A stretch of DNA of 64,000 bases from Polytrichum commune (taxonomy: Eukaryota > Streptophyta > Polytrichopsida > Polytrichales > Polytrichaceae): positions 37,081,081-37,145,080 of the forward strand of contig OX485809.1 of assembly GCA_950295325.1 (NCBI GenBank). Direction: 5' to 3'. The notes below the pieces were generated by a model that was not told where the DNA came from, ran no database searches, and saw nothing but the letters and a program-made list of their open reading frames with translations. Shown piece after piece: positions 19,262-39,828 of the stretch (positions within the stretch are counted from its first letter, which is position 1; each line of letters opens with the position of its first letter). Made by a program: the position numbers and the translations under genes.

Positions 19262-19270
19262 CTTTATATA
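19262..19270 (-). promoter_or_regulatory. TATA box of the kinase gene
   Basis: TATATAAAG on the minus strand, 205 bp upstream of the ATG at 19057 and 60 bp downstream of the motif array. Confidence 0.65.
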
Positions 19271-19329
19271 GGCAAAGGGGAGCACAATCATTATGGGATC
19301 CCGGTCGGATTTGACATGGGGCACGAAAA

Positions 19330-20190: not shown

Positions 20191-20375
20191 CTTAGTCATA
20201 TTTTTCTACTTTGATTTTAACAGAACCCTAAACACAATGGCAAAATGGTTTACTTGGCAAGGGAAATATGCACATCCACGTCGGCGTTTTCTGCCACATA
20301 GGACGCCACCTTGGCAAGAAGGTAAGTATTTTACCCACCCTAGTCCATTCCCCCTATGTTGACCCTACGTGGACC

Positions 20376-20469: not shown

Positions 20470-21822
20470 AGCTGCTCATGTATGTAAGATACAAAGGTCT
20501 TATCCAAGTAAGCATTGAAATTACAATTCAAGCATATCATCAAATGAGAATGTTGAACTAGATGTAAGGGGATAGTAAAACATAAATATACAAGTAGGCA
20601 AAAAGTTTTTATTACTACAATAGTCAAAAGGATTAGGGGAAAGAGGTACCCACCCCCTTCTTTCAGGTCGAGGCCTACTTCATTTGATTCTCACACCATT
20701 AAATTGAATTTTATTTCCGTTATGTGAAGGCCGATGCATTGCTTTGTTGTTTACCTCTTATCAGGCTTACCTCTTGGAGGTGGGCCTGCTGCAAATTCCG
20801 GTAGACCATGACACATTCTTTATAGTCTACCATGTAGGAATCCCTGTAGATTTTTCATCCATGATAATTTGTTTGGGCAATCAGACCTTCAACTTCTAGT
20901 GAGAAGTGAACTTGAATGATCTCCGCCTTTTCGACCAATGAGAGATCTCAGAATGCAATGGTCACGGTCGTTCATTCTTGTGTGTGAATTGGCCCTCACT
21001 CACATGATTAATGGGCATGTTCCAATACTATTTTGGTCACATTCACTTAGCCCACTGCAAGCCAACTCGTGTTGAGCAACTATTAACCAACGAACATGGG
21101 TGTTATATTCAGACATCAAGCTTGCAAATGTTAAGGCCCCGCGGAACATTTTTATGCAAGAAAGTGCTCGTGAGAAAACAAAGATTTGGCCTCAAAGGAG
21201 ACGAACACTCTTTTAAGGTACATTTAAATTCCTAAAGCAGTATGTCGTAAAGGAGACACATGTAAGGAGACACATTTCAAGTGACACGTATCCCTTACTC
21301 ACTCTTGTGACTTGGACTTTGATGAAAGGCAAGATAAAAAGTCATGTAGGCAGACGTAAAACAAGAAAACGAATCATTACAAGTGCGTGGATCCTTGTCA
21401 CCGAATGTTGTAAAATCAACACGTCATATATATATATAAAAGGTGAATAAATATCATACATGATTTATCATATTCTAAATCCAAAGAAGCTAGAATTCAT
21501 GATTGAAATGAGGATAGGGATACAAAATTGTCACAAAATCATAACAATTTGTAGTGTATGTTTGTAGTGTAACAAAACCATTATAAAACAATAACAAGCT
21601 ACAAAGTCAACGTAAGAAGGTCATGTTGCAAATTTGTTATAGAATTTGATTTGCTAATATTGTTACAACGTGGGTGTTCTAAAACCGTTCCAATTTATTC
21701 ATAACCAATCGCTCATCAAAAAACAACAAGATTTTTAAGAACCTGCTGCAATTTTTCATCCAAGAGACCGATATCTTCCATAATTCCCAGTCTATATAGA
21801 GTGAATTAGTTATGAACAATAA
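20470..21822. other. Host DNA between the two large transposons
   Basis: About 1.35 kb with no recognisable gene. It contains short AT-rich runs (for example TATATATATATA near 21427). The longest open frame (21011-21235) shows no domain. Confidence 0.5.
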
Positions 21823-21850
21823 AACACTATATTCGTTAAATTGAGACTTT
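21823..21850 (+). repeat. Left terminal inverted repeat of element 2
   Basis: Starts AACACTATATTCGTTAAATT and continues GAGACTTT. It matches the inverted right end with a single C/T difference. It is preceded by ATAA. Confidence 0.87.
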
Positions 21851-21974
21851 TTGGGCATTTTGAGACATTCACAAAAATAAGAACAAGGATAAATGGAACA
21901 CATATTGGAGAAAGTTGTAAGATGCGAACACTTTGAAGCGGGTGTTTAGAACAAGAACCCCATTAATAACTCAT

Positions 21975-22235
21975 ATTTGGGATTGTTTAGGGTGGGCAAT
22001 CCAAACCTTAGGCCAAGTTGAAGGGGAAATCTTAAAACATTCATATTATCGCACAAAAACTTGTATGAATATGGTTTAGGTAGGGCAATCCAAACCATAG
22101 ATCATATTGAAGGGGAAATATGTGAACCAATATAATATAACATACAAAATATTCCAAACTCATATTTGTGATGGTTTAGGTAGGGCAATCCAAACCTTAG
22201 ACCATATGGAAGGGGAAATCATGTGACACTTATAT
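21975..22235. repeat. Subterminal repeats of element 2, three units
   Basis: GGTTTAGGTAGGGCAATCC followed by AAACC, then a GGAAGGGGAAAT-like segment, occurs three times, with starts near 21985, 22073 and 22173. The spacing is about 90-100 bp and the set lies 160-410 bp from the left terminus. The core is an imperfect palindrome (GGTTTAGG...CCAAACC). It is possibly a transposase-binding region. Confidence 0.65.
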
Positions 22236-22360
22236 TATTGCAAAAAAAACATACAAAGTGTGGCATGTAAAATGCATAGCATGCTAACACCACACATCCA
22301 TTGGATAGTGCGACCCAAAATGTTCTTGCCTATGGCCCACAACCCTACGCCTACTATGGC

Positions 22361-23165
22361 CTATCTAGCCTCGGAGACTACCTCTTTTTCTTTTGCTTCA
22401 TTTTCTTTTGCTTTTTTTTCTTTTGCCTCTTTTTCTTTTGCTGCGGCTTCTTTTGCTCGCATTGCTTCAACATTCCTGAAAATCTCCGCCCCGCGACTAT
22501 AGCCATTCTTGGGGTGACCGCCATCAAAAACACATTTTGGATTCCGTCGGCCGCCCGAATTATACGACGAAGAATTCGAATACGATGAAGTGGACTGTCT
22601 TGCATTTCTGGTCATGGAGTAGAAACGCTCCAACTCGACGGACGCACTAGCCCGCATAGGTTTACGGGTGGGAGCAACCTGCAACGCGTCAATGCAAGAA
22701 CACATGTGTTAGTTTAGGGAGGAAGACCCAAACGTGTCACACGTTCAATTTTTAAGTGCGGGATGATTGTAATGCGCGGTTAACCATGTTTTTTGGGGGG
22801 GGGGGGTTCACCTTGTCACCGGGGGCGTTCCCGTCGGAGTTGGCGAGGAGGGGCAAGGCGTCCCGCAAAGGGATAGGAAGGGTGCCACTCTTCGTGGGCC
22901 GAGCGTCCATCCGCAGCCGCCGTTGAGGTGTAATACTGCCGCCGGGCCGAGAGGGGGACGTCCGGACGCATTTGCGATTTATGCCCTTGAGCGGCGACGG
23001 GGACGGAGATGGCCGGAAGATTTGCTTGGGTGGGGGGCTATCGACGACGCCGGCGTCGATAGGCTCCTTGGAGTAGTCGATGGTGGACGCGGCATCGTAG
23101 ACGGTCTCGTAGAAGAAGCTCCCCAAGTTTGATTCGTTGACGATCTCAATCGAGGGCTCCAAACG
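22361..23165 (-). CDS. Lys/Glu-rich protein of unknown function, element 2 cargo (two exons seen)
   Basis: Two exons join in phase. Exon A is 23165-22812: acceptor TTTTTTGCGCCAG upstream, donor AAG|GTGAAC. Exon B is 22678-22361: acceptor GCGTTGCAG, ending in a stop. The encoded segment starts RLEPSIEIVNESN, has a Pro/Ser-rich middle (PPPKQIFRPSPSPSP) and ends in a helical repeat of KEAKEK type (VEAMRAKEAAAKEKEAKEKK). The start is unresolved. A tiny first exon (ATG at 23279, donor TGT|GTGATA) would join in frame, but I cannot confirm it, and the HAD-like gene upstream shows no in-phase donor. No family is recognised. The C-terminal charged helix could be a coiled coil. Confidence 0.55.
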
Positions 23166-23292
23166 CTGGCGCAAAAAAGGAAACAAAACAAAACCCAAGG
23201 GGAGGGGGGGAGGGGGGGAGGGGGGAGCATGTGAAAATCGATATACAATTGAGGCATAATATATCACACACAATGGCACACCATGTAGTATC

Positions 23293-24057
23293 TCAAATGA
23301 GTTTATTATATTTCGCGTGAGCGTACAACTCTCTGTACATATAGTCCTTCGGATCCATGTATCTTTCGCCTATCGGATTACAACTAAGGAACCGGGGCAC
23401 GGGTAGTCCGCTCCCCACGAGCGTTTGAATGTACTTAAGTAGGTCTAACAAAAAGCGGTCTCGGACCTTCTCGACCGTCCACGTGGGGCAAACTATGAAG
23501 TTCGAGGTCGGGTTCAAAATGTTTTTGGAAGCGTTGTCGTCCACCATCAACGTGTTGTCACGGGTGGGGCGAACGTCGTAGGGACAGCCGACCATGGTCG
23601 GACGCTGGTCCCATACGACTGGCTTCAAGACCTTAAGAAATTGGTTTACGGCGGGGTTGTTGGGCTTTTTCACAACCCTGCCCTCGGGGGTGTATAACGT
23701 TCTACAAGAGTCCTGTCCTAGGACCAAGCACGGGGGTTGGAGTCCCTTGAAGATGAACTCCACGACGGCCTGGGTGTTCTCGGACTTCATGGAGCTCCAC
23801 ACGATCACCCACCATTTGGATAGGGCGACCTGCAGGAAGCGCCGAAGCCACGGGCGGAGGTACACTAGCTTGCTTTTGATGTACGCGGGGGGACCATCGT
23901 AGTTGGCGTCCTCGGGCTTGCAGAAAGGCACCGTGGGGACCCTCGGACAATGCACGCACTGGACAAGGACCCCGTTGAGGTCTAGCACCAGGAACCGGGT
24001 CTTGGGAGGCGAAGGTGGCGAGGGCAAAATCGGGGGGACCACCGCGCTGTCCTCCAC
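23293..24057 (-). CDS. HAD-superfamily FCP1/NIF-like phosphatase-domain protein, element 2 cargo
   Basis: About 254 residues show the order of FCP1-like HAD proteins. Motif I is FLVLDLNGVLVQ (about 22-33), motif II is VIVWSSM (84-90), and motif IV is LMVDDNASKNILNP (about 170-183). The nucleophile Asp is present but the usual second Asp of DxDx(T/V) is Asn. Plant FCP1-like relatives with DLNG exist, but the general-acid position is lost, so phosphatase activity is doubtful. The frame begins at a GTG. It is open upstream to a TAG near 24140 without any ATG, and a good splice acceptor (CTCGTCGCCGCAG) lies near 24103, so an upstream exon is likely. It ends KYNKLI at 23293. It lies downstream of the ParB-like gene on the same strand within element 2. 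Confidence 0.7.
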   Translation of the reverse strand: MEDSAVVPPILPSPPSPPKTRFLVLDLNGVLVQCVHCPRVPTVPFCKPEDANYDGPPAYIKSKLVYLRPWLRRFLQVALSKWWVIVWSSMKSENTQAVVEFIFKGLQPPCLVLGQDSCRTLYTPEGRVVKKPNNPAVNQFLKVLKPVVWDQRPTMVGCPYDVRPTRDNTLMVDDNASKNILNPTSNFIVCPTWTVEKVRDRFLLDLLKYIQTLVGSGLPVPRFLSCNPIGERYMDPKDYMYRELYAHAKYNKLI

Positions 24058-24587
24058 ACTCCTCGGAGAGGATCGGTGGGGAGCTGCGACGCTATGCTCC
24101 GAACCCTGCGGCGACGAGCGAGAGAAGGCGGACGAGGACTATGTTATGCTATGTCCATCTCAAGCAGAACGGAAATTTTGTGCAAACACAAGAAGAATTG
24201 GACCATTGGTGGCAACAAAAACATACAAGGGGAACAACATACATTGGGACACGGATGCAAACATATGGGCGCCAAAAATAATAATTTTATTTTTACAAAT
24301 CTCTATGTACAATTTGATTGGGGGGGGGGGGGGACCGCGGTGAACGAGGGCATTCACACTATCCTAATTCTACATCTACAAAATTGGTTGCGCGCCGCCA
24401 AGGTCGAGCATAGTCGAGTGCAGGTGAGACGAAGGGGATCGCGGGGGGGCACGTTGGGGGGAGGGGGAGCAAGTGTAGAGCATGGGGGGCAGGGGGTGTG
24501 CATTTCCTCCTAGCAAGGGGGACACGACCACGCCAACAAGACAATGACCCAGGAAGTTTGGGTCGGTCGACCCAAACTGGGGAGGGC
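24058..24587. other. Spacer between the ParB-like gene and the HAD-like gene in element 2
   Basis: It contains a G-run (near 24320-24333) and one copy of the element's palindrome (24556-24577), just after the stop codon of the ParB-like gene. No coding frame is convincing; it may hold an upstream exon or promoter of the HAD-like gene. Confidence 0.45.
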
Positions 24588-26084
24588 TCAGTGTATTACC
24601 TCGCCCTGGTCATGTCTCGACGATGTGGAAGCCTCCACCGTCCCCACTGCCCCGCCTCTCTCGCCACCGCCTTCTCCGACGACGTCAGGAACCTTCTCCT
24701 GCAAACGATCGGCATCAGGCCCTTGTCCTAAACCAATCTCCGCATTTGCATCATGCATGGGTTCATCGATTTGGTTAGGAGTAGAGGTATCACCAGGCCC
24801 TTGCAAGCCTTCAACATCTAGCATGGCCGTGTCTAGTTGACACCCATGTTGGTCAAGGGAGGACTGCGCTGCAACGGGGTTTGGGTCGCCCGACCCAAAC
24901 TGTCCTGCATCTGGAGAGGGCCCTTCGGACACTCCAGTGGATGGTGGGTTTGGGTCGGTCGACCCAAACATCCTGGGGTCGTCCGATTGGTGAGGGGGCG
25001 CCATGACTATCGGGGGCCGAAGTGGTGGAGGGCCCAAAGGGGAGGAGGCTCCAGAGACGCGCCAGATGTTGGGGTCATCCACTTGCTGGACCGGCGCGTA
25101 CGGAACTTGGTGGGGCCGCATCAAGTGCTGGAAGCTGAAAGACGATTGCGGCACAGGCTGCTGAGGAATGCTCTGCGGAGGGAAGCCGGGGGGCAAGTGT
25201 GGGAAGGAGCTGGAGGGAGCCACCACCAAACCTTGCGCCCACATTCCTTGTATCACTTGTGATATCAATTCGGCGTGGGACGGAGGTTGGGCCATCGCCC
25301 TCTGTCGTTCCTGCTCCAACAGGAGAGCCCTTAGCTCTGCTACCTCGTTCCGCATTGAGGGTTCTTCTGCGGCAGCCTTCTGCATGCGGACTCGCTGCTC
25401 CTCGTCCCTCCTCATCTTCTCGTTCGCCTCCTCCACAGTCAGGACCTCGGGCTTCACCCTAACCATGCCAGCGAACGCTGTCGGGGACGGGGGATCTGAT
25501 CTTAGCCGTTTGGCGAGCTCAATGTCATCGTCGTCCTCGCTGCTTATGGCAATGGTCTCCTCCACGGAGTAGTCGCCATACAGCTTCTTCCCCTTCATCT
25601 TCCTCCTCTCCCTGAACGTGGCGGTCGCGTCCCTGGAGTACATGTCCCGTGCATCGTCCACCGTCAGGACGGGCACGAGCTTACTCTGCGGGGTTGCCGC
25701 CCGCATCGCCTTCTTCCGTTGAGGGGCTTCGGATTCTTGCGTGAAGCCCGTTGCCCCTTCCTCCACGTCGCCTTCCTTCTCCGCCTCCTCGTGCTCCTCT
25801 TCTTCCTCCTCCTCCTCGACATCGCCACCTTCTGTGCGGGACGGATTGCCCGGATGCAACCCGACAAGAGGTTCGGGTTCTTGGGTTGTGGCCCTCATGG
25901 CCATTTCTTCCGGGTTGATCCGCCTCACCCTATCAAGAGGGTTTTCGCCCCCCTGAACAACCTCGTCGACGTAGCTACCCGGGATCCAATCGAGGATGTC
26001 CATCTTCTTCGCCAACGATCTCTGCGTTCTGTAAAATGGCAGATCGCCATCCTCTATGTAGGAGTATATACTCAGCCCCGACAT
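24588..26084 (-). CDS. Last exon of the ParB/methyltransferase-like gene: acidic then Gln/Pro-rich tail
   Basis: The exon begins at acceptor GACTGTGTAG|ATGTCGGGG and runs 498 codons to a stop. Its first residues (MSGLSIYSYIEDGD) continue in phase from the preceding exon and complete a segment that resembles a methyltransferase SAM-binding loop. An Asp/Glu-rich block (a run of Glu near residue 95), a coiled-coil-like segment (NEVAELRALLLEQERQRAMA) and a long Pro/Gln-rich disordered tail follow. Two copies of the element's palindrome lie inside the coding sequence (24879-24900 and 24948-24969), where they encode FGSGDPNP and FGSTDPNP. The exon could be read as a free-standing gene, because it starts with ATG, but the flanking splice signals and phase favour an exon. 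Confidence 0.65.
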   Translation of the reverse strand: MSGLSIYSYIEDGDLPFYRTQRSLAKKMDILDWIPGSYVDEVVQGGENPLDRVRRINPEEMAMRATTQEPEPLVGLHPGNPSRTEGGDVEEEEEEEEHEEAEKEGDVEEGATGFTQESEAPQRKKAMRAATPQSKLVPVLTVDDARDMYSRDATATFRERRKMKGKKLYGDYSVEETIAISSEDDDDIELAKRLRSDPPSPTAFAGMVRVKPEVLTVEEANEKMRRDEEQRVRMQKAAAEEPSMRNEVAELRALLLEQERQRAMAQPPSHAELISQVIQGMWAQGLVVAPSSSFPHLPPGFPPQSIPQQPVPQSSFSFQHLMRPHQVPYAPVQQVDDPNIWRVSGASSPLGPPPLRPPIVMAPPHQSDDPRMFGSTDPNPPSTGVSEGPSPDAGQFGSGDPNPVAAQSSLDQHGCQLDTAMLDVEGLQGPGDTSTPNQIDEPMHDANAEIGLGQGPDADRLQEKVPDVVGEGGGERGGAVGTVEASTSSRHDQGEVIH

Positions 26085-26154
26085 CTACACAGTCCAAGTT
26101 ATATAGACATTAGAATTAGGCGAGGGACATAAACAAGACCAAGTACAATGTGTA

Positions 26155-26320
26155 GTTTGGGTCGATCGACCCAAACCAACAAAGAACCTAGTTTGGGTCG
26201 ATCGACCCAAACCAACAAAGAGACTAGTTTGGGTCGATCGACCCAAACCAACAAAGAGCCTAGTTTAGGTCGATCGACCCAAACCAACACAGAGCCTAGT
26301 TTGGGTCGATCGACCCAAAC
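26155..26320. repeat. Five palindromes at an exact 36-bp spacing, inside an intron (element 2)
   Basis: Copies of TTTGGGTCGATCGACCCAAA (flanked by G and C) begin at 26155, 26191, 26227, 26263 and 26299. The 14-bp spacers are nearly identical (CAACAAAGAGCCTA). The set lies in the intron between the 26349-27680 exon and the 24588-26084 exon. Confidence 0.9.
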
Positions 26321-26348
26321 TGCGCACGAGTTATAGAAAGTCGCTTAC

Positions 26349-27983
26349 CATGGCAGCATAGATAGGTTTAGAGCCTCCGAAGACGTTGAAGATGCAATCC
26401 CCTCTCCTCGTCAGCGTCCTCATCATTCTCACGTAAAATTCCATCCGCAGCTCATCTAAAGGATAGTTCGCGTATTTAGCCTCGTCGTAGAGGCACTTGT
26501 TGACACCCAACCCTTCTGGAACTTGGAAGAGTTTGTCCATCCGGGATATAGGGTGGTTCGGCACCTTCAGCAACTCCGCTTTGTACACGAAGTACAAACA
26601 CAAGACGTTGACGAACTTGGTCTTCTTGTCCCTCAACGTCGTGTAAGCTCCCTCCGCCGGTGCGGCGATGTAATGAGACTTGGAGACTGCATACTCCGGC
26701 TGCAGTTTCCGGGCAAGCTCGTACACCTGCTCCGCCCTTCTATCCTCGACTATCCAAAGCCAGATATCTACCTCCCTGAACTTAGGGCTTGCATAATCGA
26801 CGAACTTAGATAGGAAGGGGTCATAGAAGAGGGTGCTCATCGTGCCCTCAAATGAGCTTCCAGGAATATTCCTGAAATCAATCATCCCAAAAGGAAAGCG
26901 GTCCCTTGCTTTCGTCCTTATTACCATTCTGGCGTCTTGACCTGGCCAGCCCTGAATTTTCAACGGGTCGGCGGTGACAAGGTTGAAGTACGCTTCCCCT
27001 TCAAACTGGACAATCTTCTTCTCCTTGATGAAGTTCGAGAACGCACGCGCTGTGTGATCCGGAAGCGCCCGGTTCTTCCCACCCTTCACCATCTTGGCCC
27101 GCAAGAAGTCGTCCCCCGCTTCCCTTATTAGAGCCGCCATGGAGGCACTGGTGAACTTATATTCAGCTTTGAATGCTCTCCAGTTAGCCTCATGGACCTC
27201 GCCGTCCACGACAATATTCCTCTCTGGCACTAGTTTATGCAGCTCCTGCACGATAGTCGTCTTCTTTTTCCTGTTATCCGTCCATTCCTTCATGGTGTAG
27301 CATGAAGGAACGAAGGATTTGGGCTTTTGGAAGACAATCTTCGGGTGCACCCAACACCTCTTCGCCGTGGGTGCCACGTGCAGGATGTGAGATGCCGCCT
27401 TCTCCACCTCCGTCTCTGACAGCCCTTGAAGAGTTCTAAAGAACTCTCTCACGAGAGGCTTCATCTGCTTGAAGCGCGAGGTTTGGCTGAAGAAAATGCC
27501 AGTGTCGGGGTCGATCAAATCCCCCGTCTCGTGCTTTTCAAACACGGTTTTCCACTTCCTCCAAACTGAGTCAGATGCTGTAATCAAGTAAATCTCCCCC
27601 TTGAGGTCGCTGTATTTCTTCTGCTTGTGGCTCGAATTATCAATGGAGGAGAATTTGTTGATCATTTGGTATTTGAAATCCTGCACGTCCACAAAACAGA
27701 ACATTTGAATGCGTGTTAGATATGTACATGTGATTTCCAACCCATATCATGACCAACATCTGCAACAACAGTTTGGGTCGATCGACCCAAACTAAATAAA
27801 CTAGCTGCATCAGGAGTTTGGGTCGGTCGACCCAAACTAAATAAACAAGGCTGCATCAGGAGTTTGGGTCGGTCGACCTAAACAATACTCACCTCCCATT
27901 TGGGATTCTTGTCCTTCGCATTCTCCCTCTCCTTGGGAGGCCTACCATAGAACTCCCACACCTCCCGCGAGGCCATGATATTC
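26349..27983 (-). CDS. Middle exons of the ParB-like gene: region resembling an N4/N6 DNA methyltransferase
   Basis: Exon 27983-27893 (reading NIMASREVWEFYG, acceptor GGATAAG, donor GAG|GTGAGT) joins in phase to exon 27680-26349 (acceptor GTGGACGTGCAG, donor ATG|GTAAGC). The large exon encodes about 444 residues. Its end, LTRRGDCIFNVFGGSKP followed by IYAAM, then MSGLSIYSYIEDGD from the next exon, matches the pattern of the SAM-binding motif of beta-class N4/N6 DNA methyltransferases (GD-hydrophobic-x-D/N-x-F-x-GS...AA...G...E-D). I do not find a clear DPPY/DPPW catalytic motif; YDPFLSKFV is the nearest, so activity is doubtful. ParB-like domains fused to such methyltransferases are known in phages and mobile elements, which supports the reading. 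The family assignment is by eye only. Confidence 0.55.
27771..27883. repeat. Three palindromes in an intron of the ParB-like gene (element 2)
   Basis: Copies begin at 27771, 27816 and 27862, spaced 45-46 bp with related spacers (CTGCATCAGGA). They lie in the intron between exons 27983-27893 and 27680-26349. The third copy has one mismatch in its right arm. Confidence 0.88.
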
Positions 27984-28629
27984 CTTATCCAGGATGTGGG
28001 AACACGCGAACACCAAAAATGTCCGGATTGGCGGTTTTAAGTGCCTAATCCGGGTTGTCCGGATGACCCTAGTATCGTCCAGGGATTCTGTGAAGTGTAG
28101 GAGGTAGAGATTTTCCGGAACTGTTTGTTTCCCCTCTTCTTTTATATTTTCCGGAAATCCTAGTTTCCGGCCTTTTTGAAGTCCTCCTGTATCTGGAACT
28201 TCCTCTTCCGGATTTGACTCCTAAGTCCCAGACGGATTGTTTCCTCCCTAAAATATCTTTGTACTACGTTCTATCCTCCCTTAATGATGGGTATTTTCCG
28301 GTGAAGACGTCCTTCTCTAGAGGGGGGTCCGGATCTTCCCTCACAACCAAGCCGGATTGATCAGGTCCGGATTGGCAGGTCACACAGGGAGTCCGGATTA
28401 CCTCCTAGGACCACAACGACAGGAGGGTGCCGGATTCCACGAAGGGGGGTAAGCTCAACAGAGTGAAAGAGTGATCTGTACCACGTTCCGGAATATCTTG
28501 TCTCTACGCTACTCGGATATCCGGATCGATGGTGTCTCCTTCCCCCTTCCTCCGGATCTGTATCCCCTCATCCGGAATCCTAACTTACTCCTATACTTCT
28601 CCGGATCTCATCCGGCTAGTACTACCTTT

Positions 28630-29190
28630 GGCTCTACTGAATCCGGGCTAACTAGGCGATCCGTACCATTTTCCGGATTGGTCCGTCTAAAGGCGGTGGG
28701 ACCTCTTCAGAAGCTCGGATGGCATGAATCCGGATCCCTCCCGGACTTCACCCAATCCTCCCAGCGGCTATCCCACCTAGACGTTTCCCGACCAGCCGGG
28801 AAAATGAGGTTTCCCTCCCACTACACCCGGAAAGGTTCTGGAAGGTAATGACTAGTGATCTGATCCGGGTCTCCCCTTCCGGCGGACGGATCCGGTATAC
28901 AACTGCCTGGGGCTCTACTAAATCTGAGATAACTGGGCGATCCGTACCACTTTCCGGATTGTTCCGTCCGAGGGCGGTGAGACCTCTCAAAAGATCGGAT
29001 GGCGTAAATCCGGATCCCTTCCGGATTTTACCCAGTCCTACCAGCGGCTATCCCACCCGGACGTTACCCAAACATCCAGAATAGTGAGGTTTCCTTCCCA
29101 CTACACTCAAAAAGGATCCCTAGGCTTGCAACCGGATCTAATCCGGGTTTCCTCTCCTTTGTCCTATTCGGACTTCCTACTCCTTCCTTA
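28630..29190. repeat. Tandem duplication, period 281 bp
   Basis: GGCTCTACT starts at 28630 and again at 28911. The following sequence (GGCGATCCGTACCA, TTCCGGATTG, then GCGGCTATCCCACC, then GAGGTTTCC) is shared in order with scattered differences. Confidence 0.85.
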
Positions 29191-29397
29191 CTTCTAGCGT
29201 ACAACAACCTCCCAATCCGTCCGTGCACAAAACAAATGAGAATAGGTGAAGATCTAGAGTTTTATTGAGTAGGGAGCAACACAATACAACAATGGAGAAG
29301 GAACACTTCTCCAGCTCCTTATTCAACCTTAAGTAGAGGCTGTGATCCCTAACTAAGGGTGGCGGCCCAGGCGGCCGCCCTGGAAAACCCTAACTGC

Positions 29398-29457
29398 GAG
29401 AAATCCGGAACTTCGGACTTTCCGGATTTCTCGGAAGATCCGGAATTCCCGGATCTT
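29398..29457. repeat. Two adjacent hairpins containing CCGG
   Basis: GAGAAATCCGGAA at 29398-29410 pairs perfectly with 29420-29432, and AAGATCCGG at 29435-29443 pairs perfectly with 29449-29457. They lie inside the CCGGA-rich insertion. Confidence 0.8.
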
Positions 29458-29904
29458 GATCTGCTGACACAAAATTTGAATTGCATGCTCGCCTAAGTCT
29501 GATCTACCTATTCCTGCTGTCCTAATTCTGATCTACCTACAGCTGCATGCTTAAGTCTAATTCAAGTGGTGTGGTGCTTTTTCGCCGCCTTTCCATTTTT
29601 GGTTTGACTTGGTAATCCGTTGATGGCGGAAGCTCCTCCTCCGGGGGCAAAATAGTCTCCTTGGTTGCTGAAGGCCCTAGCCGCTGAAGGCCCGGTTTGC
29701 TCCCGGGATCCGGAATTTGACTTAAATTCCGGTCCGGCCAAAGTATCAGTTTTAACCATTTTATCGTGTAAGGCGGAGTTCAAAAACCCATTATTCCTAA
29801 TACGGCTAAAACACTCAAATAAACCTGATTACCCCTAGGTTAGCATGGTAAAATATGGAATTTGGATCCGTATTTCCGTATTTCCGTATTCCGGCGAAAA
29901 AGTG

Positions 29905-31143
29905 GGCTCCCACACAGGAAGCTTGGTAGGCCCTCTTCTTATTTCCCATATTGAAGTACCGGGAGATGTCGCTGAGCTTGGTCTCGTCGTCAGACCACAC
30001 CACCAGTGCCTTCCAAACCTTCAGCTTTTCCTTCTGATTGTTCGGATCATCCCACTCATTCATGAGTTGGATTTTCTTGGATGCCTCCACGCTGTGCTGG
30101 CCGTCTATGAGCCAAAAATCGCCCTTCTGAATTGTGGGCCACATTTCAGGTGTAGGCATTTTCTTGAGACCCTGTGGCATCACTACTATCGTTTGCCTGT
30201 CGTCTTTAAACTGCTCGCAAACGATCTGCGCGATTATCCAGTCAACGTAGGCGTCCTCCTTTGCCCGGACACACTTCTCCGGTGGCGCTAGATGGCACTG
30301 GCTGATGTTCACGTCGAACTTAAAATCCCTGCCCATGAAAAAACAGTGGGAGCATTTCGTCGTGAAATTGTTCACGATTTTCTGCAGCTCCCCTGCATCC
30401 ACCTCTTCGCCGGGCTTCGGCATGCGCAACTCCGGTGAGACTGGCTCGTCAGTCATCACAGATGACTCTCTCCCCCTCTTGGATGGAGTTGTTTGACGGC
30501 TCCCAGAAGGTGTAGGCGTCTCGCTATCCGCAGGTGTTTGGGAGGGAGTGGTCCTCCGTGAGTCAGCCGGTACTGGTCGCGGCTTCCTCACCGATTGAGG
30601 TCTTGACGACCCTGCTCCTTCCTCTGTGGTTGCTTTCCGCCTCACGGGTTGCTGAGACTTGGTTTTGCTCTGCAGGGCTTTGTTGAGCACGCTGATTGCA
30701 TGCTTTAGTTTCGTGAATCTGCTCGACACCTTTGTGTTCGATGTACTGTTATCGATGAATATGGACTCCGGTTTGATGACGACTGGTTCTACACATGTTT
30801 CTTTTGCATAGATAGCGTCAAAGGGTTCGGAGAATTGGTGCATAAACATATGCGCGTTCTGGACAGCGTTGTTCTCGAGGATGACATCCACGTAGTCTCC
30901 AAGAGACTGAACCGATGCCACCTCCCACCCCGTAAGAGTAGCCCATGTGTGCTTCTCCACGGTCCCAACCTTCACAACAAAAATCATTTTGTATTGCGAA
31001 CCCTTAACCACTTGTATAGACCACGCGAGGACAAGCCCGTCCTTAGGGGAATAGGAGTCATCCTGCGGGGTTTCGTGCTCCTGCCACAACATGTCTGGCG
31101 CAGGCATGAACCACCTTTCGTCGGGTCTTTTCTTTGGAGCCAT
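29905..31143 (-). CDS. First coding exon of the ParB-like gene (DGQH motif), element 2 cargo
   Basis: The start is the ATG at 31143 (MAPKKRPDERWFMPAPDM), which directly follows TTTTCTTACAG, so a leader intron may end there. The first 150 residues have no family I recognise. A Ser/Thr/Pro-rich basic linker (about 185-250) follows. Then comes a domain with DFWLIDGQHSVEASK, where DGQHS lies at about residues 347-351. DGQH(R/S) is the signature of the ParB-like/DGQHR group, whose members bind DNA or cut and modify nucleotides. Later, SRYFNMGNKKRAYQAS resembles the helix that follows that motif. The reading is lost near 29905 at the CCGGA-rich insertion; the frame runs on to a stop at 29815 through inserted sequence. 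Palindromes lie 5' of it (31169-31190 and 31431-31664). Confidence 0.6.
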
Positions 31144-31430
31144 CTGTAAGAAAATAATGTGCAATGTTAGTTTCGGTCGTTCGACCCAAACATCTACGAC
31201 ATGAATAGGTTTAGGTGGATTGTATATTTATATATTTCAGCATCATTTGTATTGATAATAAGAATGTTTTGATTATTGGGTGGATTTGCATTTTATATTG
31301 TTTGTGACATGCAGGATTACTTGATACTTTTCCTTGATACATTCCTTGATTATTATTTTTTAGTGGATGTGAATTTTATATTGATGCAAAAATCATGGAT
31401 TTCTTTATGAGTTTATAATTAGAAGACGTT

Positions 31431-31664
31431 GTTTGGGTCGTTCGGCCCAAACATGATGCTTTGTTTTGTGTTTGGGTCGGTCGACCCAAACAAGAGGCTG
31501 TGTTTGGGTCGTTCGGCCCAAACATGATGCTTTGTTTTGTGTTTGGGTCGGTCGACCCAAACATGATGCTTTGTTTTGTGTTTGGGTCGGTCGACCCAAA
31601 CAAGAGGCTGTGTTTGGGTCGACCGACCCAAACCTGTGGCCGTGTTTGGGTCGTCTCCCCAAAC
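31431..31664. repeat. Seven palindromes 5' of the ParB-like gene (element 2)
   Basis: Copies begin at 31431, 31470, 31502, 31541, 31580, 31612 and 31644. Spacing alternates between 39 and 32 bp because two spacer types (one with CATGATGCTTTGTTTTGT, one with CAAGAGGCTGT) are mixed. Some copies read GTTCGGCC at the centre. A degenerate copy lies at 31169-31190, close to the start codon. Confidence 0.88.
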
Positions 31665-31920
31665 TTTCCTATTTTAATGTAATTTTTAAAAGTTGGCACG
31701 TAGCATATACAATGCTTATGCGTTGTGTATGCTACAATACCTTCAATTGACAAACACTTATTGCATATAATAAAAGAAAATACCTTTGTTGTATGTAGCA
31801 GTTGTTGTAAACAGTTGCTTTAGAACAGGTGTTCTTCTTCCAATAACACAGAAACAGTTGAATGTAACCTCTCACACAAATCCACAATATCTCATACAAC
31901 TCCTAGATCTCTTTTGAATC

Positions 31921-32316
31921 TCTCAAACAACAATTCAATACTTCAAACAACCTCTGAATCTCTAAGAACAAGTGAATCTCTCAAAACAATAACTGACTCT
32001 CTCAAATGACTTAGATATCTCTCAAACAACAATTGAGTGTTTCAAACAACCTCTGAATCCCTAAGAACAAGTGAATCTCTCAAAACAATGACTGACTCTC
32101 TCAAATGACTTTTGTATCTCTCAAACAACAATTGAGTGTTTCAAACAACCTCTGAATCCCTAAGAACAAGTGAATCTCTCAAAACAATGACTGACTCTCT
32201 CAAATGACTTTTGTATCTCTCAAACAACAATTGAGTGTTTCAAACAACCTCTGAATCCATAAGAACAAGTGAATCTCTCAAAACAATGACTGACTCTCTC
32301 AAATGACTTTTGTATC
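31921..32316. repeat. Tandem repeat with an exact 99-bp period, four units
   Basis: TCTCAAAC landmarks fall at 31921, 32020, 32119, 32218 and 32317. Each unit runs through CAACAATTGAGTGTTTCAAA, then ACCTCTGAATCC, then AAGAACAAGTGAATCTCTC, with very few differences. It lies 5' of the ParB-like gene in element 2. Confidence 0.92.
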
Positions 32317-32319
32317 TCT

Positions 32320-35280
32320 CAAACACCTCCTGATTATCTTATAGAACTCCTAAATCTCACAAACTCTCCAACTACAATACAGCCTCCAAAACCCGCAAGC
32401 TTAGAATGTTGGAAAACCCTTCAACAATCTTCTACTTACTTCACTCTACAACAATCACTCTACTAACTCTCACGCACTCTAAAACTCTCTCCTTAGGTTT
32501 CTGTTCTATTGCAAACACTTCCTAACTTCTACAGCAAGAGAAGGGAGGGAAGGAGAAGAATCAGTAGGCGCCAAAGCAACAAGAAGGGAGGGAAGAGAAG
32601 AAAATCGCCACCCTGAATCGCCACGGCGCTTCGCGAAAGCGGCGCTTCAGGAGAGGCGGCGCTTCCACAAGAGGCGCGGAGCGAATGCTTGGCGCGGAGA
32701 GAGAGAGAAAGAGCGAAAAGTTGTGACGGCTGGGGTTTTGTATGCCTCGGGAATTGGCCCCCAACCGCACGAATAGGGTGCCAACGGGATTAGGGCACCA
32801 ACGGAATTAGGATTACGGGGAACCCTAAATCCTAAAGCCAAACTGTAAACCCTTAGCGGGCATTAGTATTTTCAAGACACTTTGGAGTACCCTAATGGGG
32901 CATTCCCACTTGACTTTAGTTAAGACCCTCACTATTTTATAAAGACCGGGTAAAGCTCCCTCGGTTATAGCGGAGGCATCCAACTATCCCAATGCACCTA
33001 CAAGAACTTGCTCCGGAGATTTTCAAGTAGGTTTTAGTTAAGTAGCTTTCACACATGTTCATGGTTTTATCTACCAAGCAATGAATGTTGGGTAGTTTTT
33101 GTCCCATCCCCAAATGCCTTACTACTCACCTATCTTACCATCGGTTTTTGTTAATGAAGCTCCTCGTGCCCTCATAGCTAAGACTAAAAAGCAACCAATC
33201 ACAAGGGTGGGAGGCGACACTTTTAAAATTCCTATATTCTTGCCTAATGTTTAGGTACCGATGGGAGCGTCGGTGGTTGAGGCTTAAAACCTCCACTTTT
33301 GAGCCATGCCACATCATTTGCCACCTAGGCTCGGCACTAAAAAGAGCCATATGTGTGAAACCTAGATAACTAAAACCGCATTTAGACTAATACTACTTCT
33401 AACTAATGTCAAGAGGGAATGCCCCATAAGGTGCACATCAAATGCGGTATTCTACAAAATGAAACCATTTATACAACTAATGCATTTTTACAACGCAACG
33501 TTATGCTAAAACTAAGACTTAACCCCTACTCACATGACACCATAACCTAAATTTCCCAAACAAGTTGAAATCATTGGTTTCTCTTTTGTTTGAGCAAGTT
33601 AGAAAAATAATACAATTGCGTGACATTTAACGATGTAATCGTTGACATTTAGACTTTACCAATGATGCCAAGAACTCACACAATATGCAATGAATAAAAA
33701 ATATAACCCCCGTCCCCCAACATGAAATTCGGAAATTTAGGATATTTGAATGTGTTTGCTAAATGTATACCTTCCCCAAGAGCATTTTCTCAGGGTTTGG
33801 AATTGCATGATCCTTATGTCGAAATGCTAACATGCTCAAGTTTTTAGTAAATCCCTTACATACTCACTTGAATGAATCACATAGTCGCCAATAAACCATG
33901 GATCGTGATATATGTACTTCGAATGTGATATAAAAGTAAATCGGAGAACCACAACATCAAATGAAGCCCTTTGACGCAATCATGTTGTTATTGAATGTTC
34001 CCTCCACGTATATTACATAATGGCGCAAGATAAAGTTCATGTTGTTTGTATGTGGAGGTAGCAGTGAACAACTACGAATTTTTGTATTTAGGGTTTAGGG
34101 TTTAGGGTTTAGGAGTTAGGTTTATAACATATTAATCTATCCAATATTAACATATAACATTGACTTACTGGTGAGAATAGGTTTTTACTGGAAGGTAATA
34201 GAAAAGACGATCTTGATTATGTTTATTTGTTATTACGGACGTTTAAACGTGATATAGTGAATGGTCTTGTGTTTATTCAAATAACATGAAATGTTGTGGA
34301 TGTTATTAGGGGTAAGGGGTTCAACTTTGGATGTTTTGCTCACTTTAGGGAATCACATAGTCGCCAATAAACCATGGTTCATGATGTATTTAATATATGG
34401 AATGTGATGCAAAAGTAAATAAGAGAAGCACAACATCAAATGAAGCCATTCACGCAATCATGTTCTTATTCATTGTTCCCTCCACATGTATTGGATAATG
34501 GAGAAAGATATAACAGATATTGTTTGCATAATATGAAGAAGAGTCTAATAGGAAGGTTATAGTAAATACAATCTTGATCATGTTAATATGTTATTTGGGA
34601 CGTTTAAACATGATATACTAATTGGTTTTGTATTTTGTCAATACGTATTTCATGTTGTGGATGTTATAAGGGTTTAGGGTCCAACTTTGGATGTTTTGGT
34701 CACACACATTAGTAAACTTGAAGTGAACTTGAGGATGGATTGAAATAACATTAAAAGATTGAACCAAAAAGCGACATTGCTAGTTAGTATCCCCTTAACA
34801 ACGTCCACATACGTTTATCATTGCCACACTTCCATGCGAGATAACAGAGCCGCAATGTTCTAGGGTTTAGGGTTTAGGGGAGACAAATAAATAATTTTAT
34901 TCATCATGACAATGGCCTCAAGCCTTGGAAACTCTCTCATAATTGCAACCTCCAAATGGCCCCAACCCCACCTAAATAGGTTTGCACTTGAAAGCATTGA
35001 ATGGAGTTGTGGTTGGGTATACATATTGGTTAAAATATACCGTTGTGACACTTGAAAAAATTAATGTGGCCGCCACCCTTCCTCCCAATGTCGTATGTCA
35101 TATACACACAAAACCAAAAAAAAATTAAATATCATAGACTAAGACATATGACGGCTGGGGTATGAGAGGGGCATTGAAAGATGCGCATTTTCTACAATAA
35201 ACAGAAAACGGGGAATTCTGTCAGGAGGTTTGAAATAACAAGGCGGGAAAGGCATCCAATGAGGAAGTCGGGCAAGTGGA
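32320..35280. other. Non-coding interior of element 2 with duplicated segments and telomere-like motifs
   Basis: No gene is recognised. A segment starting AATCACATAGTCGCCAATAA occurs at 33875 and again at 34351 with about 170 bp of similarity. A second pair (around 34200-34330 and 34560-34700) is also duplicated. Four TTTAGGG units lie at about 34088-34115 and further copies at 34861-34880. Confidence 0.55.
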
Positions 35281-35289
35281 GGTGGATAG

Positions 35290-35296
35290 TATAAAG
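35290..35296 (+). promoter_or_regulatory. TATA box candidate for the element-2 transposase gene
   Basis: TATAAAG lies in a plus-strand setting (GATAGTATAAAGGGGCGC) about 1.3 kb upstream of the start codon at 36624. A leader intron ending at TTTGTGTAG (36619) would bridge the distance and contain the palindrome array. Confidence 0.45.
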
Positions 35297-35574
35297 GGGC
35301 GCACCCCCCAAAAGTTGGTTCTTTTTTGCTCTTCTCCCACTCCTGAATTCGTAGAGAGAACTCTTAGTCGGAGCTGTACTTCGAGGTTCGTTCACGCTGT
35401 TGTTCATGAGGACCTATTCACAGCATGCAAGTCCGCAGTGAACTTTGCAATGAGATGAAATTCCACACACCTCTCAATATCCGCTGCATTATACGCTGCA
35501 TTATACGCTGTATTATACGTCGGTCGACACTAGTGTTGGCGGGTTTCAGTCTGACCCTTGTGAGGTTTGGGTCG

Positions 35575-36422
35575 GTCGACCCAAACCCCTCCACTAGTGT
35601 GGGCGGGTTCTAGTCTGACCATTCTGAGGTTTGGGTCGATCGACCCAAACCCCTCCACTAGTGTGGGCGGGTTCTAGTCTCACCCTTGTGAGGTTTGGGT
35701 CGGTCGACCCAAACCCCTTCACTAGTGTTGGGGGGGGGGTCTAGCCTGACCCTTGTGAGGTTTGGGTCGATCGACCCAAACCCCTTCACTAGTGTTGGGG
35801 GGGGGTCTAGTCTGACCCTTGTGAGGTTTGGGTCGGTCGACCCAAACCCCTTCACTAGTGTTTGGGGGGGGGGGGGTCTAGTCTGACCCTTGTGAGGTTT
35901 GGGTCGGTCGACCCAAACCCCTTCACTAGTGTTGGGGGGGGGGTCTAGTCTGACCCTTCTGAGATTTGGGTCGATCGACCCAAACCCTTTCCCAGTGTGG
36001 GTGGACTTACCCTGTGAAAGTTTGGGTCGACCGACCCAAACCCCTTCCGAGTGTGGTGGGTTTACCCTGTGAAAGTTTGGGTCGGTCGACCCAAACCCCT
36101 TCCCAGTGTGGATGGATTTAGCCTGTGAAAGTTTGGGTCGACCGACCCAAACCCCTATCCAGTGTGGGTGGATTAACCCCGTCAAAGATTGGGTCGGTCG
36201 ACCCAACCCCTTCCCCAGTTTCGGAGGTTGTAGTTGACCATGACAAGGATTGGGTCGGTCGACCCAAAATTTTCCCCACAGCGTGATGGAATTCTAAATG
36301 GCCCTCAACCCATCATTGTACAAGGTTTGAGTCGGTCGACCGGAACCCGACCCTATCCCACGGGCAAGGTGTGGATGGCCCTCAATCCCTGGTGCCACAG
36401 GGTTTAGGTCGGCCGACCCAAA
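35575..36422. repeat. Palindrome array upstream of the element-2 transposase (about 14 copies)
   Basis: Copies begin at about 35575, 35629, 35693, 35760, 35826, 35897, 35964, 36020, 36075, 36131, 36187, 36249, 36323 and 36401, spaced 54-78 bp. The centre varies (GATC, GGTC, GACC), and the last four copies have mismatches. Spacers share CCTTCACTAGTGTTGGGGG and GTCTAGTCTGACCCTTGTGA. It probably lies in the leader intron of the transposase gene. Confidence 0.9.
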
Positions 36423-36623
36423 CTCCCACCCAAAATATTTTGTGGAACATTTTGTGGACTGGCGCATAGTATTGGGAGCTCACATTGCATTTGTGTTGCA
36501 AATGTCTTGATCCTCAGTGTCCCCATTTATCGTGATGTTTTGCATTTTCCAATATTTGATTTTTTTGGACCCTTATGTTGTGTCCATGTTTGTTGAGGTT
36601 TCATGTGCATTTGTGTAGGCGCA

Positions 36624-39293
36624 ATGGAGGGAGTTGGTGGAAGAGGGGATTCCTTCTCTGAAGACATGGGCAGCACCCAATCTCTGTCTGGGGATGAGCT
36701 AGACATTGTCGGGGAGGATAGTTTTGATGACAGTGCAGATGAAGGTCATTTGGGGAGTCCTTCGCCATCTGACCCTTTTTGCCCCATTGTGGAATGTGCG
36801 GGGCTTTCACGAGCTTCATGGGTGAATTTGGATGTGGTACTTGTTAATGACAGTGGAGTTGTTGTGGCGGAGGGTATTTGTCGTAACACACATCCACAAG
36901 ATTGCATTGATGAACACTCCCTTGGCACCGAGGACGTTGGAGTTGTTATATTAGAATCACTTGTACATTCGGAAGTCAATCCAACTCATAGGTTCTCGTT
37001 GCGAAGGTGGCCGTTGAGGAATGTGACAATTGAGGGGGTTAGCTTGCGCGACCATGAGCGACGACACGTCCAAATCCAACAGGAGCTCCAAGCAAACATT
37101 CGGCCACGCAAAGGCCTTCGGAAGTACGAAACATTGACACGTCCTACTCCGTCTGCAAATAAGTGTAAACGTCAAAGGTTGCTCTGTGAGGAGTCTATTA
37201 GAGAAGTTGCTACGAAGGATTGTTGTGTACATCGTTGTTGCCAATTGTTCCCAAGAGATAAATTGAAGGCCATCCGTGAAGAAATGTGGCTTGGAGATTT
37301 CCGTCTAAGATCCACCAAAAAACTTGATGTCCATAGGGCGATACACTTTAGCGAATACATCACAAAAAGACGAGGCGACAAATTTGCCCGTTGTTCCAAA
37401 TGCGAGAAGTTGAAACGCCTTCGAGATGCACACACGATGGGAACAGAGTCCTATGCCGCACATCAAATGAACTATTTCAAGCATGTGAACATGCAAGAGG
37501 CACACCGTAATGATTACTACACAAATAGAGCTTTGTCCATCTCCAGGCCTTTGGAAGTCCTTACAATCATCCATGACAAAATGGACCATGCCAAAACAGC
37601 CTCACCATGTTTTGCAAATCGAATAAAAGCCACGGATGGCCTTTTTAAGCTTCCTGTTTCGGTTACAGGTGATTTTGATAACAATTGCATTGCATTACCT
37701 AAACACAAATTTGTGCGTTTAGGTTTGTACTTGGGGCCATACATGTACACCATGTGAATTTTTTGGTGTTATAGTTGAATATTAAACCATTGGGTTGCCT
37801 TTGCAGGAATGATTGCACATGGGCATGGAGATGTCAAGTATGCTCATTATGCTCTTGATTTGTATCCGGGGGATTCAAACCACACGATAGGGTCATTTGC
37901 AAAGCTTTTACGTGATTTGGAGAAACCGCCGTCCTATTCATCAAGATTGCTATTTGAAAACTCGGGATCAACACCTCTATATGAAGCGGTCTTGGATGGA
38001 AGAGATGTATGCGTGCACTCATTGCCGGAGCCACCAAGTGAAGATGTGATTGCCAAGAATTTGCCCCCAACTCTGCGTGTCCAATTGGACAATTGTGCGA
38101 AGGACAATAAAAGTAGATATGTTTTTGCATATTGGTCGTTGTTGGTTGCGAAAGGCATTTTCAAGGAGGTTTTTGTGTCCTTTCTATTGGTAGGCCACAC
38201 GCACGATGATATTGATGCGTCCTTTGGGCGGTGGAGCATGAAGTTGCGCGAGGAGGATTTTCCAACAATCCCATTGTTGATGAAGTCGTACATGGATTTG
38301 GAGAACATTCCCGTCATCCCACATATGATGGAGGAGGTTCCAGACTTCAAGGCATTTATAGAACCGTATATTCGAAGCGGAGCTCACCGATTGATCGGGC
38401 ATACGAAGGCACAACAATTTCGGTTCTACGTGCGTGACGATGGTGTCCCCGCCATGCAATACAAGTTGTTGTGCACATCACAAGACTGGAGCCCGCCGGA
38501 GGGTCTCCTTGTATGGCGTGTTGATGGGGAGGGAAGGACGATGTTGCCTGACGGAGAGCCTAAGCCTTGCAAACCAATACCCATGAAGAATTTGGAGGAC
38601 ATTTGTAAAGGCATATCAGGCTTCATACAATATTGGGAGAGTTTGAGGGTAGCGGATGTTGGTGGATCGTGTTGGCTTCGTTACGGAAGTTGGATACAAT
38701 ATTGGACACGTGTTCGTGGCGCTTTGGCAAACCTTCATCAAGATACACCCCTTACTTTAAGGCATGGGTTTTGGCCACAAACACGTGTCAATGTACAAGC
38801 TTCGAAGGCTAGTCTTTTGGGAAATGGAGAGGTTCGAGAGGAGTTTGATGTGGACGACCATTACGTGGGGCCTGCTAGTAGTCGTCCGCCACCATCTTTC
38901 CGCATTGCAGTGGATTGTCATGAAGGTTATATGCTCATTTTGCGTCCTGGAGATGAGACATATGCAAAGCCAGTGTGGGTGGCAAGAGCTTTGTCCAAAC
39001 CAAATTTTGTAACTTCCAGCCCTCATTTTCGACAAATACAAGTAGAGTACTACCGACCGACATCACGGAATGAAGATGTTGTTCGGCATTATACAGGCTG
39101 GAATACAAACCCTAACTTTCGGTGGAAGGTGGATTCTGAGCATGGTCCATCTTGGATAGATACAGATTCCATATTCATAACATGGAAACCACGGAAAAAT
39201 CATAGTGGATCGGTGTCCATCCCTCAAAAGTACATAACTTTTGCAAAAGACAACCTTGCTCGGATCGCAGAAGAAGCAACCCACGTTAAATGA
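36624..39293 (+). CDS. Transposase-like protein of element 2 (resembles DUF7869 family), two exons
   Basis: I join exon 36624-37722 (donor G|GTTTGT) to exon 37807-39293 (acceptor GCCTTTGCAG), giving 861 residues in one frame. The start is the ATG after TTTGTGTAGGCGCA. The N-terminal half holds Cys-rich pieces (DCCVHRCCQLF, ARCSKCEKLKR) that could bind zinc. The second half has LDNCAKDNKSRYVFAYW (the Asp near residue 461) and FLLVGHTHDDIDASFGRW (HTHDDID about 497-503). This D-N...K-N plus GHTH..D pattern is what I remember of DUF7869 proteins, which look like RNase-H-fold transposases. Position close to the right terminus supports a role in mobilising element 2. The intact frame over two exons suggests it is functional. 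An alternative donor cannot be excluded, but this one keeps the frame. Confidence 0.75.
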
Positions 39294-39796
39294 GAAGTTG
39301 GTAGGATTGTGTTAGCATGATTATAGTGTAATATGTAATTCGACGAATATATATTACTCATATGTGTGCTCCTCAAACTTGGGGCAAAGTTTGGGTAGAA
39401 CTTGCGAATGCTATATTGTTTGGGGTTGGATGAATATCCATTTACTATATTTCAATACAAATGTGAAGTTCATTTTTTTATTAAGTTTGGGACTAAATTG
39501 TCCATTGAAGAAAAATGCATTTATTGCATGCACTTTGTATGTTGCAATGTCTATATTTTATTGACCATGCTAATAATATAAACCATTTTATATGTTTATT
39601 GGATGAAACTAGTTTGGAGTGCTCTACCCAAAGTGTTTTTGTTGATGAAGTTGGTGTTGAGTGCTCTACCATATGTGCTTATGTCCACACATAATAGATT
39701 TGGGATATTAGAACATATAATATATTTGAGATTGTTCGCAATATAGTTTCGGAACACGGAATGTTGTTTGATCCATATATTAATTTGAGACTAGAG
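39294..39796. other. 3' flank of the transposase gene inside element 2
   Basis: AT-rich, no coding frame. GGAGTGCTCTACC-like sequence is duplicated at about 39616 and 39657. Confidence 0.45.
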
Positions 39797-39824
39797 AAAG
39801 TCTCAATTTAACAAATATAGTGTT
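39797..39824 (-). repeat. Right terminal inverted repeat of element 2
   Basis: The reverse complement starts AACACTATATTTGTTAAATT and continues GAGACTTT. It is followed by ATAA at 39825-39828. Confidence 0.87.
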
Positions 39825-39828
39825 ATAA

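Follow-up and report, generated by a model that had tools for sequence, protein, structure and literature searches.

The DGQH gene and its transposon

The stretch of DNA analyzed here, 64,000 nucleotides of Polytrichum commune contig OX485809.1 (referred to throughout as the window), contains a whole DNA transposon of 18 kb (21823..39824), delimited by an inverted repeat and by edges common to other copies. Two genes of this element are of primary concern: an accessory gene on the minus strand that encodes a putatively ParB-like protein with a DGQH motif (24588..31143; the DGQH gene), and a transposase gene on the plus strand (36624..39290). Palindromes of one family lie in the DGQH gene and upstream of both genes, and this report concerns the relation between the protein and such palindromes, in the window and in related transposons of the same 408-Mb genome.

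The DGQH gene was delineated by reading frame and splice sites as three exons: exon 1 in two parts (31143-29915 and 27994-27893), exon 2 (27680-26349) and exon 3 (26084-24588). A sequence-only reading of this locus had proposed one spliced gene, and this proposal agrees with copy cC7, in which exon 1 is uninterrupted and the three exons join in frame, with GT/AG junctions, into a predicted protein of 1366 amino acids; three-exon splicing is thus plausible from the sequence. In the window, exon 1 is interrupted by a solo-LTR-like (long terminal repeat) insertion of 1920 bp (27995..29914; TGTGGG...CCCACA), flanked by the target site duplication (TSD) CAGGA at 27990-27994 and 29915-29919. An intron at this place was considered and ruled out, given the TG...CA ends, the 5-bp TSD and the empty site found in each of three other copies examined. 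Because the insertion is absent from those copies, the window gene is regarded as broken; intact copies exist elsewhere in the genome. A genome search with exon 1 yielded 1047 candidates, 104 of which were scored; these are 90-100% identical, and some contain stop codons.

The ratios of nonsynonymous to synonymous substitution rates (dN/dS) reveal purifying selection on the DGQH gene. Between the window and one diverged copy, L047+L048 (C4:4566000-4585999), they are 0.068, 0.105 and 0.118 for exons 1-3 (399, 445 and 131 codons aligned), at a protein identity of 86-91%; it is this low dN/dS that indicates constraint. Against two near-identical copies, which offer few changes, the ratios range from 0.09 to 0.55. 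In close pairs, the transposase gives 0.24-2.3, and constraint is not evident. The synonymous divergence (dS) of the diverged copy is 0.41-0.74 in the DGQH gene and only 0.025-0.029 in the transposase gene. A diverged accessory gene beside a near-identical transposase gene makes L047+L048 look chimeric, and element modules therefore seem to have moved from one subfamily to another. This copy moreover holds part of the DGQH region in duplicate.

Palindromes of the window family

The palindrome TTTGGGTCGRYCGACCCAAA has 32 matches in the window at no more than three mismatches, compared with 0 in each of 100 shuffled sequences. In the whole genome, TTTGGGTCGNNCGACCCAAA occurs exactly at 9731 sites, versus 0 for the same pattern read backwards. 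The sequence-only reading had placed palindromes in the introns, the coding sequence and the 5' flank of the DGQH gene, and they were found in all of these: seven sites with 0-2 mismatches in the 5' flank (31171..31632), three in intron 1 (27772..27882), five with a 36-bp period in intron 2 (26156..26319) and two in exon 3, at 24880 and 24949 (24880-24968), with a further one just 3' of the stop codon, at 24557 (24557..24968 together). A larger array, of 14 sites with no more than three mismatches, lies upstream of the transposase gene (35566..36422), outside the region covered by that reading. All arrays are internal to the element, 3.4-4.3 kb from its right end and 2.7-9.8 kb from its left end. 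Several palindrome arrays are tandem repeats of near-constant period (36, 64 and 73 bp).

The palindrome site is sharply bounded. Across 22 of the 32 sites of the window, picked from different contexts, all but the two centre positions of the 22-position GTTTGGGTCGNNCGACCCAAAC have an information content of 1.4-1.9 bits (20 positions), and the centre has 0.3 and 1.1 bits, the inner values being partly due to construction because the sites were chosen by pattern match; outside the site the content is mostly below 0.4 bits, with a maximum of 0.63. The outermost G and C of GTTTGGGTCGNNCGACCCAAAC are conserved although they were absent from the search pattern. The central dinucleotide varies, and the sites are therefore without a constant GATC.

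Seven site classes and the protein tree

What is new here is that GQH relatives in the same genome accompany different palindromes, and that these palindromes match protein groups. The relatives with different palindromes reach down to about 18% identity. The '692' family (L049-L050) lacks any BLASTN match to the window of at least 120 bases, and the window palindrome, which we designate S1, has no exact copy in it; the family carries a GQH gene on the strand opposite the transposase and its own palindrome, CCCACGGGTGNNCACCCGTGGG (S2), upstream of both genes. Its GQH protein is 21% identical to that of the window (pairwise BLASTP E 0.002) and matches 111 places in the genome, down to 23% identity; 19 loci were picked for reading from the list of these matches. 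Five more site classes were recognized, with the half-sites CCACGGGCG (S3), TTTCACTCG (S4), TTCCACTCG (S5), GTTCCTCTCG (S6) and CTTCCTCTCG (S7). When the seven patterns were counted in 25 loci with their flanks (five of which are S1 copies), 232 of the 234 exact sites belonged to the main class of their own locus; since the class of each locus was read from its sites, this count speaks for a single class in each locus, and it is the tree that ties the class to the protein. One of the two off-class sites is in cC7, beside a neighbouring 692-type copy, and the other is in L056. Other single palindromes, outside the seven classes, are also present in the loci.

When the GQH domains are placed on a FastTree phylogeny, the site classes are seen, at the level of sequence, to follow the protein groups. 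Five of the seven classes (S1, S2, S4, S6 and S7) are each monophyletic, and S3 and S5, with two sequences each, are not; S2 is nested within S3 (support 0.72 and 0.93). Three pairs of classes (S2/S3, S4/S5 and S5/S6) are separated by a single change among the inner nine bases of the half-site, at a protein identity of 74-87%, and the step from S3 to S2 is a change of CG to TG in both half-sites. Among the three large groups (S1; S2-S3; S4-S7), three to seven of the nine bases differ, at a protein identity of 18-32%.

The sites also recur at equivalent places, namely the 5' flank of the GQH gene, the beginning of intron 1 of that gene and the 5' flank of the transposase gene. Of 22 loci surveyed, 21 contained the GQH motif (L060 did not match the search expression). 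An exact site of the locus' own class lies +353 to +406 from the motif in 14 of these 21, in six classes (S1-S6), and within the first intron as judged by the frames; sites 1.2-2.5 kb before the motif occur in 16 of the 21. Own-class sites just upstream of the transposase open reading frame (ORF) were found for S1, S2 and S4; the S4 ORFs are transposase relatives whose DUF7869 part falls outside the stretch. By their coordinates, the own-class sites of two S3 elements precede the DUF7869 match by 1.8-2.1 kb. In S6 (L071), a palindrome cluster is present and no transposase ORF of at least 150 amino acids was seen in the stretch.

Outside this genome, relatives were found only as L077 and L078, in a cyanobacterial metagenome bin (GTDB AVDCRST_MAG81, Synechococcales), by one scan of prokaryote genomes; viral contigs searched with the DGQH protein and its alignments gave no relatives. 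L077, 32% identical to the window sequence, bridges the '692' and window proteins. In both, two reading frames match DGQH exons 1 and 2, and because the frames are interrupted as if by an intron, we take L077 and L078 for eukaryotic DNA in the bin, probably a contamination.

Nature of the encoded protein

The ParB/Srx superfamily is marked by GERR or DGQHR motifs, DGQHR being that of DndB, and GxRR is the CTP-binding motif of the ParB of ParABS systems. In the window, the translated DGQH motif lies at 30094..30105 (minus strand). All 12 relatives that were aligned keep GQH unchanged, with N or D before it and S or T after it. For an AlphaFold model of the GQH domain, built from L077, L078 and the window with a predicted local distance difference test score (pLDDT) of 38, Foldseek ranks 1-19 are all ParB, Noc, KorB or sulfiredoxin entries (E 0.04-0.83); beyond rank 19, among the best 50 of 61 matches, mostly unrelated enzymes and three weaker ParB entries follow. 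The ParB-like character claimed by the sequence-only reading is thus supported weakly though specifically, at this pLDDT and with no Pfam or PDB sequence match. A single-sequence AlphaFold model of exon 1 (pLDDT 34) was uninformative. In hhalign, the GQH motif was aligned with DGFHR of a YbdM-type ParB-like set at E 0.087, a score that eight of 100 column shuffles reached and one of these surpassed by a wide margin; when SopB was the only partner, the motif was left unaligned. Taken together, the modelled fold makes it likely that the GQH domain is ParB/Srx-like.

The end of exon 2 is likely, from sequence alignments, to be derived from a methyltransferase. A segment resembling motif I, GDCIFNVFGGSKPIYAAM (26349..26402, minus strand), was identified there by alignments and hhalign and is present in eight of eight exon-2 sequences. 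Aligned with YhdJ-type methyltransferases, motifs X and I coincide at E 0.012 (probability 3.6), which none of 100 column shuffles equalled; in two crossed comparisons, 47 and 49 of 100 shuffles did so. One relative, L078, has a Pfam N6_N4_Mtase match, below threshold (E 0.033). The catalytic motif IV, [DNS]PP[YFW], is present in none of the eight exon-2 sequences and in none of 13 frames, including all window exons; in its place, upstream of the motif-I-like segment, stands D[FT]R[NF][TIL]P. Because the catalytic motif is missing, it is doubtful that the protein is an active methyltransferase, and the methyltransferase part may have lost activity in this transposon family. The methyltransferase-like part of the sequence-only reading is thus supported in part, by the alignment over motifs X and I. 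In profile searches, beyond the sub-threshold match of L078, the DGQH exons matched no family at threshold, ParB or methylase, in Pfam, NCBIfam, PHROGs, PADLOC or PDB sequences, and the DGQHR model TIGR03187 had no match in the genome.

Proposed recognition of the own element

Matching versions of protein and palindrome suggest that each protein recognizes its own transposon, and we consider it fairly probable that the DGQH protein is a family-specific, ParB-like regulator that is encoded by the transposon and binds the transposon's own palindromes. Large DUF7869 DNA transposons encode a putatively ParB-like GQH protein divergently from the transposase; this protein would bind, as a dimer, the 20-22-bp palindromes of its own element in three places, the promoter of the GQH gene, the beginning of intron 1 and the promoter of the transposase gene. 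Protein and site form a separate pair in every transposon family, so that the protein may be expected to act on that family only. Bound protein would then switch the promoters and chromatin of the element, with anti-silencing or autoregulation as the most likely direction of the effect, as with VANC of the Arabidopsis VANDAL elements. The methyltransferase-like part at the C terminus would then serve to bind S-adenosylmethionine (SAM) or as a structural module, and not to methylate. The parS-like recognition that the sequence-only reading envisaged gains indirect support from the co-diversification of protein and palindrome sequences. That reading suggested that the element may mark, pair or silence itself, and the anatomy would fit regulation of the element's own promoters at least as well.

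Several observations speak against this interpretation. The agreement between proteins and sites is in part common descent, because gene and sites travel in the same DNA, although descent alone leaves unexplained the joint change of arrays at separate places of the element, and of the two arms within each site. The distance between sites is not a simple function of the distance between proteins in these alignments: S6 and S7 have identical inner nine bases and differ further out, and S1 and S4, whose proteins are 25-26% identical, differ at only three of nine bases. An exact site at +353 to +406 is missing from seven of the 21 loci, namely L053, in which the frame is open throughout and no intron is seen at that place, L055, L059, L061, L067 and L068, whose stretches end at +409 and +412, and the window, where the intron site is shifted by the insertion. 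L056, L058, L059, L062 and L066 have no site 1.2-2.5 kb upstream of the motif, the nearest upstream sites in L056 being at 10.7 kb, and L059, with two stop codons in its GQH match, has no site of any class. On the protein side, the arginine of the ParB motifs is replaced by S or T, the confidence of the structural model is low, no fold match of this model reaches E 0.001, and sequence profiles run against PDB retrieved neither ParB nor methyltransferase, with Pfam sub-threshold at best. Finally, the transposase, and not the GQH protein, could be the reader of the sites.

This last point leads to the alternative that the palindromes are transposase binding sites, like the subterminal repeats of En/Spm, and that the GQH protein has another role. 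Transposase and sites are on the same element and one array is near the transposase gene, but the arrays are internal rather than subterminal, and many sites are in or beside the GQH gene and its introns, which makes this account decidedly unlikely. Another unlikely alternative is an active methyltransferase, acting on N4 of cytosine or N6 of adenine, whose ParB-like domain guides the marking of its own element at the palindromes; such a proposal is in print for Sola1-1_Ec32 of Ectocarpus and comes close to the sequence-only reading. The presence of the motif-I-like segment in eight of eight exon-2 sequences, its alignment above all 100 shuffles and the weak Pfam match of L078 would agree with such an enzyme, and according to the main text of PMC12477816, the published algal relatives combine ParB-like and DNA methyltransferase domains; against it stand the missing [DNS]PP[YFW] and the variable centre of the sites.

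Segregation, pairing or spreading in the manner of ParB/parS, with protein loading at the palindromes, spreading as a clamp and clustering element copies, would account for a ParB/Srx-like domain and for palindromes near the size of parS. An integrated transposon, in contrast, has no need of partition; the GxRR nucleotide motif is not kept (GQH[ST]), and a Pfam scan of nine ORFs of the window element (smaller ORFs were outside the scan) yielded only NIF and DUF7869 above the cut-off and no ParA-like gene. We regard this mode of action as very improbable, and a ParABS partition system proper was set aside, given that ParA was not found and GxRR is not kept. That the palindromes are a passive repeat, a by-product of hairpins or tandem duplication whose match to the protein is purely common descent, is hardly credible. 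The tandem arrays of near-constant period and the linkage of sites and genes are what such a process would leave, but both half-sites change together across separate arrays of the element, the site edges are sharp while the spacers differ, and families keep a palindrome at the same place in the intron with different letters.

Beyond the family-specific regulator, a broader proposal is possible, which we hold only tentatively: ParB-like proteins and their parS-like palindromes may form a diversifying code that separates the families of this superfamily, each protein recognizing only its own element and counteracting silencing there. Because S2 lies within S3 (two S3 sequences) and has TG where S3 has CG in each half-site, a change that the loss of methyl-CpG would produce, host methylation may help to drive changes in such a code.

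Relation to known systems

The protein idea of the sequence-only reading is already in print for algae, since accessory genes of the ParB-methyltransferase type have been published there. The main text of PMC12477816 describes Sola1-1_Ec32 of Ectocarpus, a 21.5-kb DNA transposon with an opposite-strand accessory gene containing ParB-like and methyltransferase domains, and similar accessory genes in green and red algal transposons. Compared by description, the present element resembles Sola1-1_Ec32 in being a large DNA transposon with such a gene on the opposite strand and differs in its plant host and in the missing catalytic motif. The host genome contains LEAFY-type genes (four matches of PF01698, each above the cut-off), as land plants and close streptophytes do. 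The same main text uses the string 'palindrom' 0 times and mentions neither site arrays nor their pairing with protein groups. Among the open PMC papers listed, judged by titles and abstract openings, we found nothing on cognate palindromes of ParB-like transposon proteins. The palindromes found here suggest what form the target sites of the algal accessory proteins could take.

In function, the closest likeness may be to VANC. PMC5735166 reports that VANC targets lie in tandem arrays in accessory-gene introns and upstream of the transposase, that related VANC proteins have different targets, and that loss of methylation was demonstrated. VANC shares with the DGQH protein its status as a transposon accessory protein and the family-specific motif arrays in accessory introns and upstream of the transposase, the target role of the arrays being inferred here; its targets, in contrast, are YAGTATTAC/T and not palindromes of this size. 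VANDAL elements are Mutator-like, whereas the transposase here is of the DUF7869 type. The VANC domain DUF1985 has no Pfam match in the DGQH exons, and no sequence relation to VANC was found. With at least seven site classes in one genome, these diverged pairs of protein and site amount to a naturally occurring collection of candidate sequence-specific DNA binders and the targets that go with them, and they make it testable, outside the angiosperm VANDAL elements, how transposons tell themselves apart and escape silencing.

To the ParB/Srx superfamily (ParB-parS, Noc, KorB, DndB), the DGQH protein is likened by its predicted fold, by [ND]GQH at the place of GERR/DGQHR and by palindromic sites; the lost arginine of the motif, the lack of ParA and of a significant sequence match, and the residence in a eukaryotic transposon set it apart. 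Its exon 2 end resembles N6_N4_Mtase (PF01555, e.g., YhdJ) in motif X and a motif-I-like segment and differs from it in the absence of DPPY and in a best Pfam match below threshold. DndB was formerly placed in the ParB superfamily and, according to PMC10853773, has been proposed to be an ATP-dependent negative regulator of transcription; autoregulation is for this reason a reasonable second form of the proposed mechanism.

Ends, copies and other features of the element

The element ends in terminal inverted repeats (TIRs) of 28 bp, AACACTATATTYGTTAAATTGAGACTTT (21823-21850 and 39797-39824), identified as an inverted repeat, and the window copy is flanked by the TSD ATAA (21819-21822 and 39825-39828). 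The left edge (21823) is common to the window and three other copies, and the right edge is reached by 39 further genome matches, which end 0-9 bases past 39824. Fourteen copies were inspected (the window, three long copies and ten more), with left and right ends paired by distance and TSDs compared by eye. A perfect 4-bp TSD was found in 10 of the 11 copies with both ends readable, C5:20265205 having none; the count leaves out two copies without a left end in the stretch and cC1, whose right end was unread.

Sola1 DNA transposons have 4-bp TSDs, a feature that is thus present here, and CACTA/EnSpm elements have TIRs beginning with CACTA and 3-bp TSDs. A CACTA/EnSpm identity was ruled out by the 4-bp TSD; moreover, AA precedes CACTA in four copies that were read without requiring it. 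The text of PMC10045372 mentions neither 'Sola' nor DUF7869.

The transposase gene has at least two exons, with open frames at about 36624-37754 (the 3' exon end is approximate) and 37803-39290, the latter containing Pfam DUF7869 (PF25273; about 38052-38477, plus strand, E 2.4e-41). At 37344-37345, the window copy is ~400 bp shorter than three other long copies. A DUF7869 search of the genome gave 1491 candidates, of which 150 matches, with frames of several lengths, were scored; the three top-scoring matches (L043-L045) have a palindrome, TTGGAAAATTTTCCAA, in common, which may be either a further site class or coding sequence.

The element also carries a gene resembling NIF and C-terminal domain (CTD) phosphatases (23293..24138, minus strand; PF03031, E 1.4e-13), perhaps a captured host gene. 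The stretch containing it is present in three other copies and was not found in the fetched part of the diverged copy. Between the two divergent genes, at 31900-32300, lies a tandem repeat of ~100 bp (CTCTCAAACAACAATTGAGTG...). Outside the element, the region 18692-20205 is GC-rich and repetitive, and several of its reading frames stay open over long distances.

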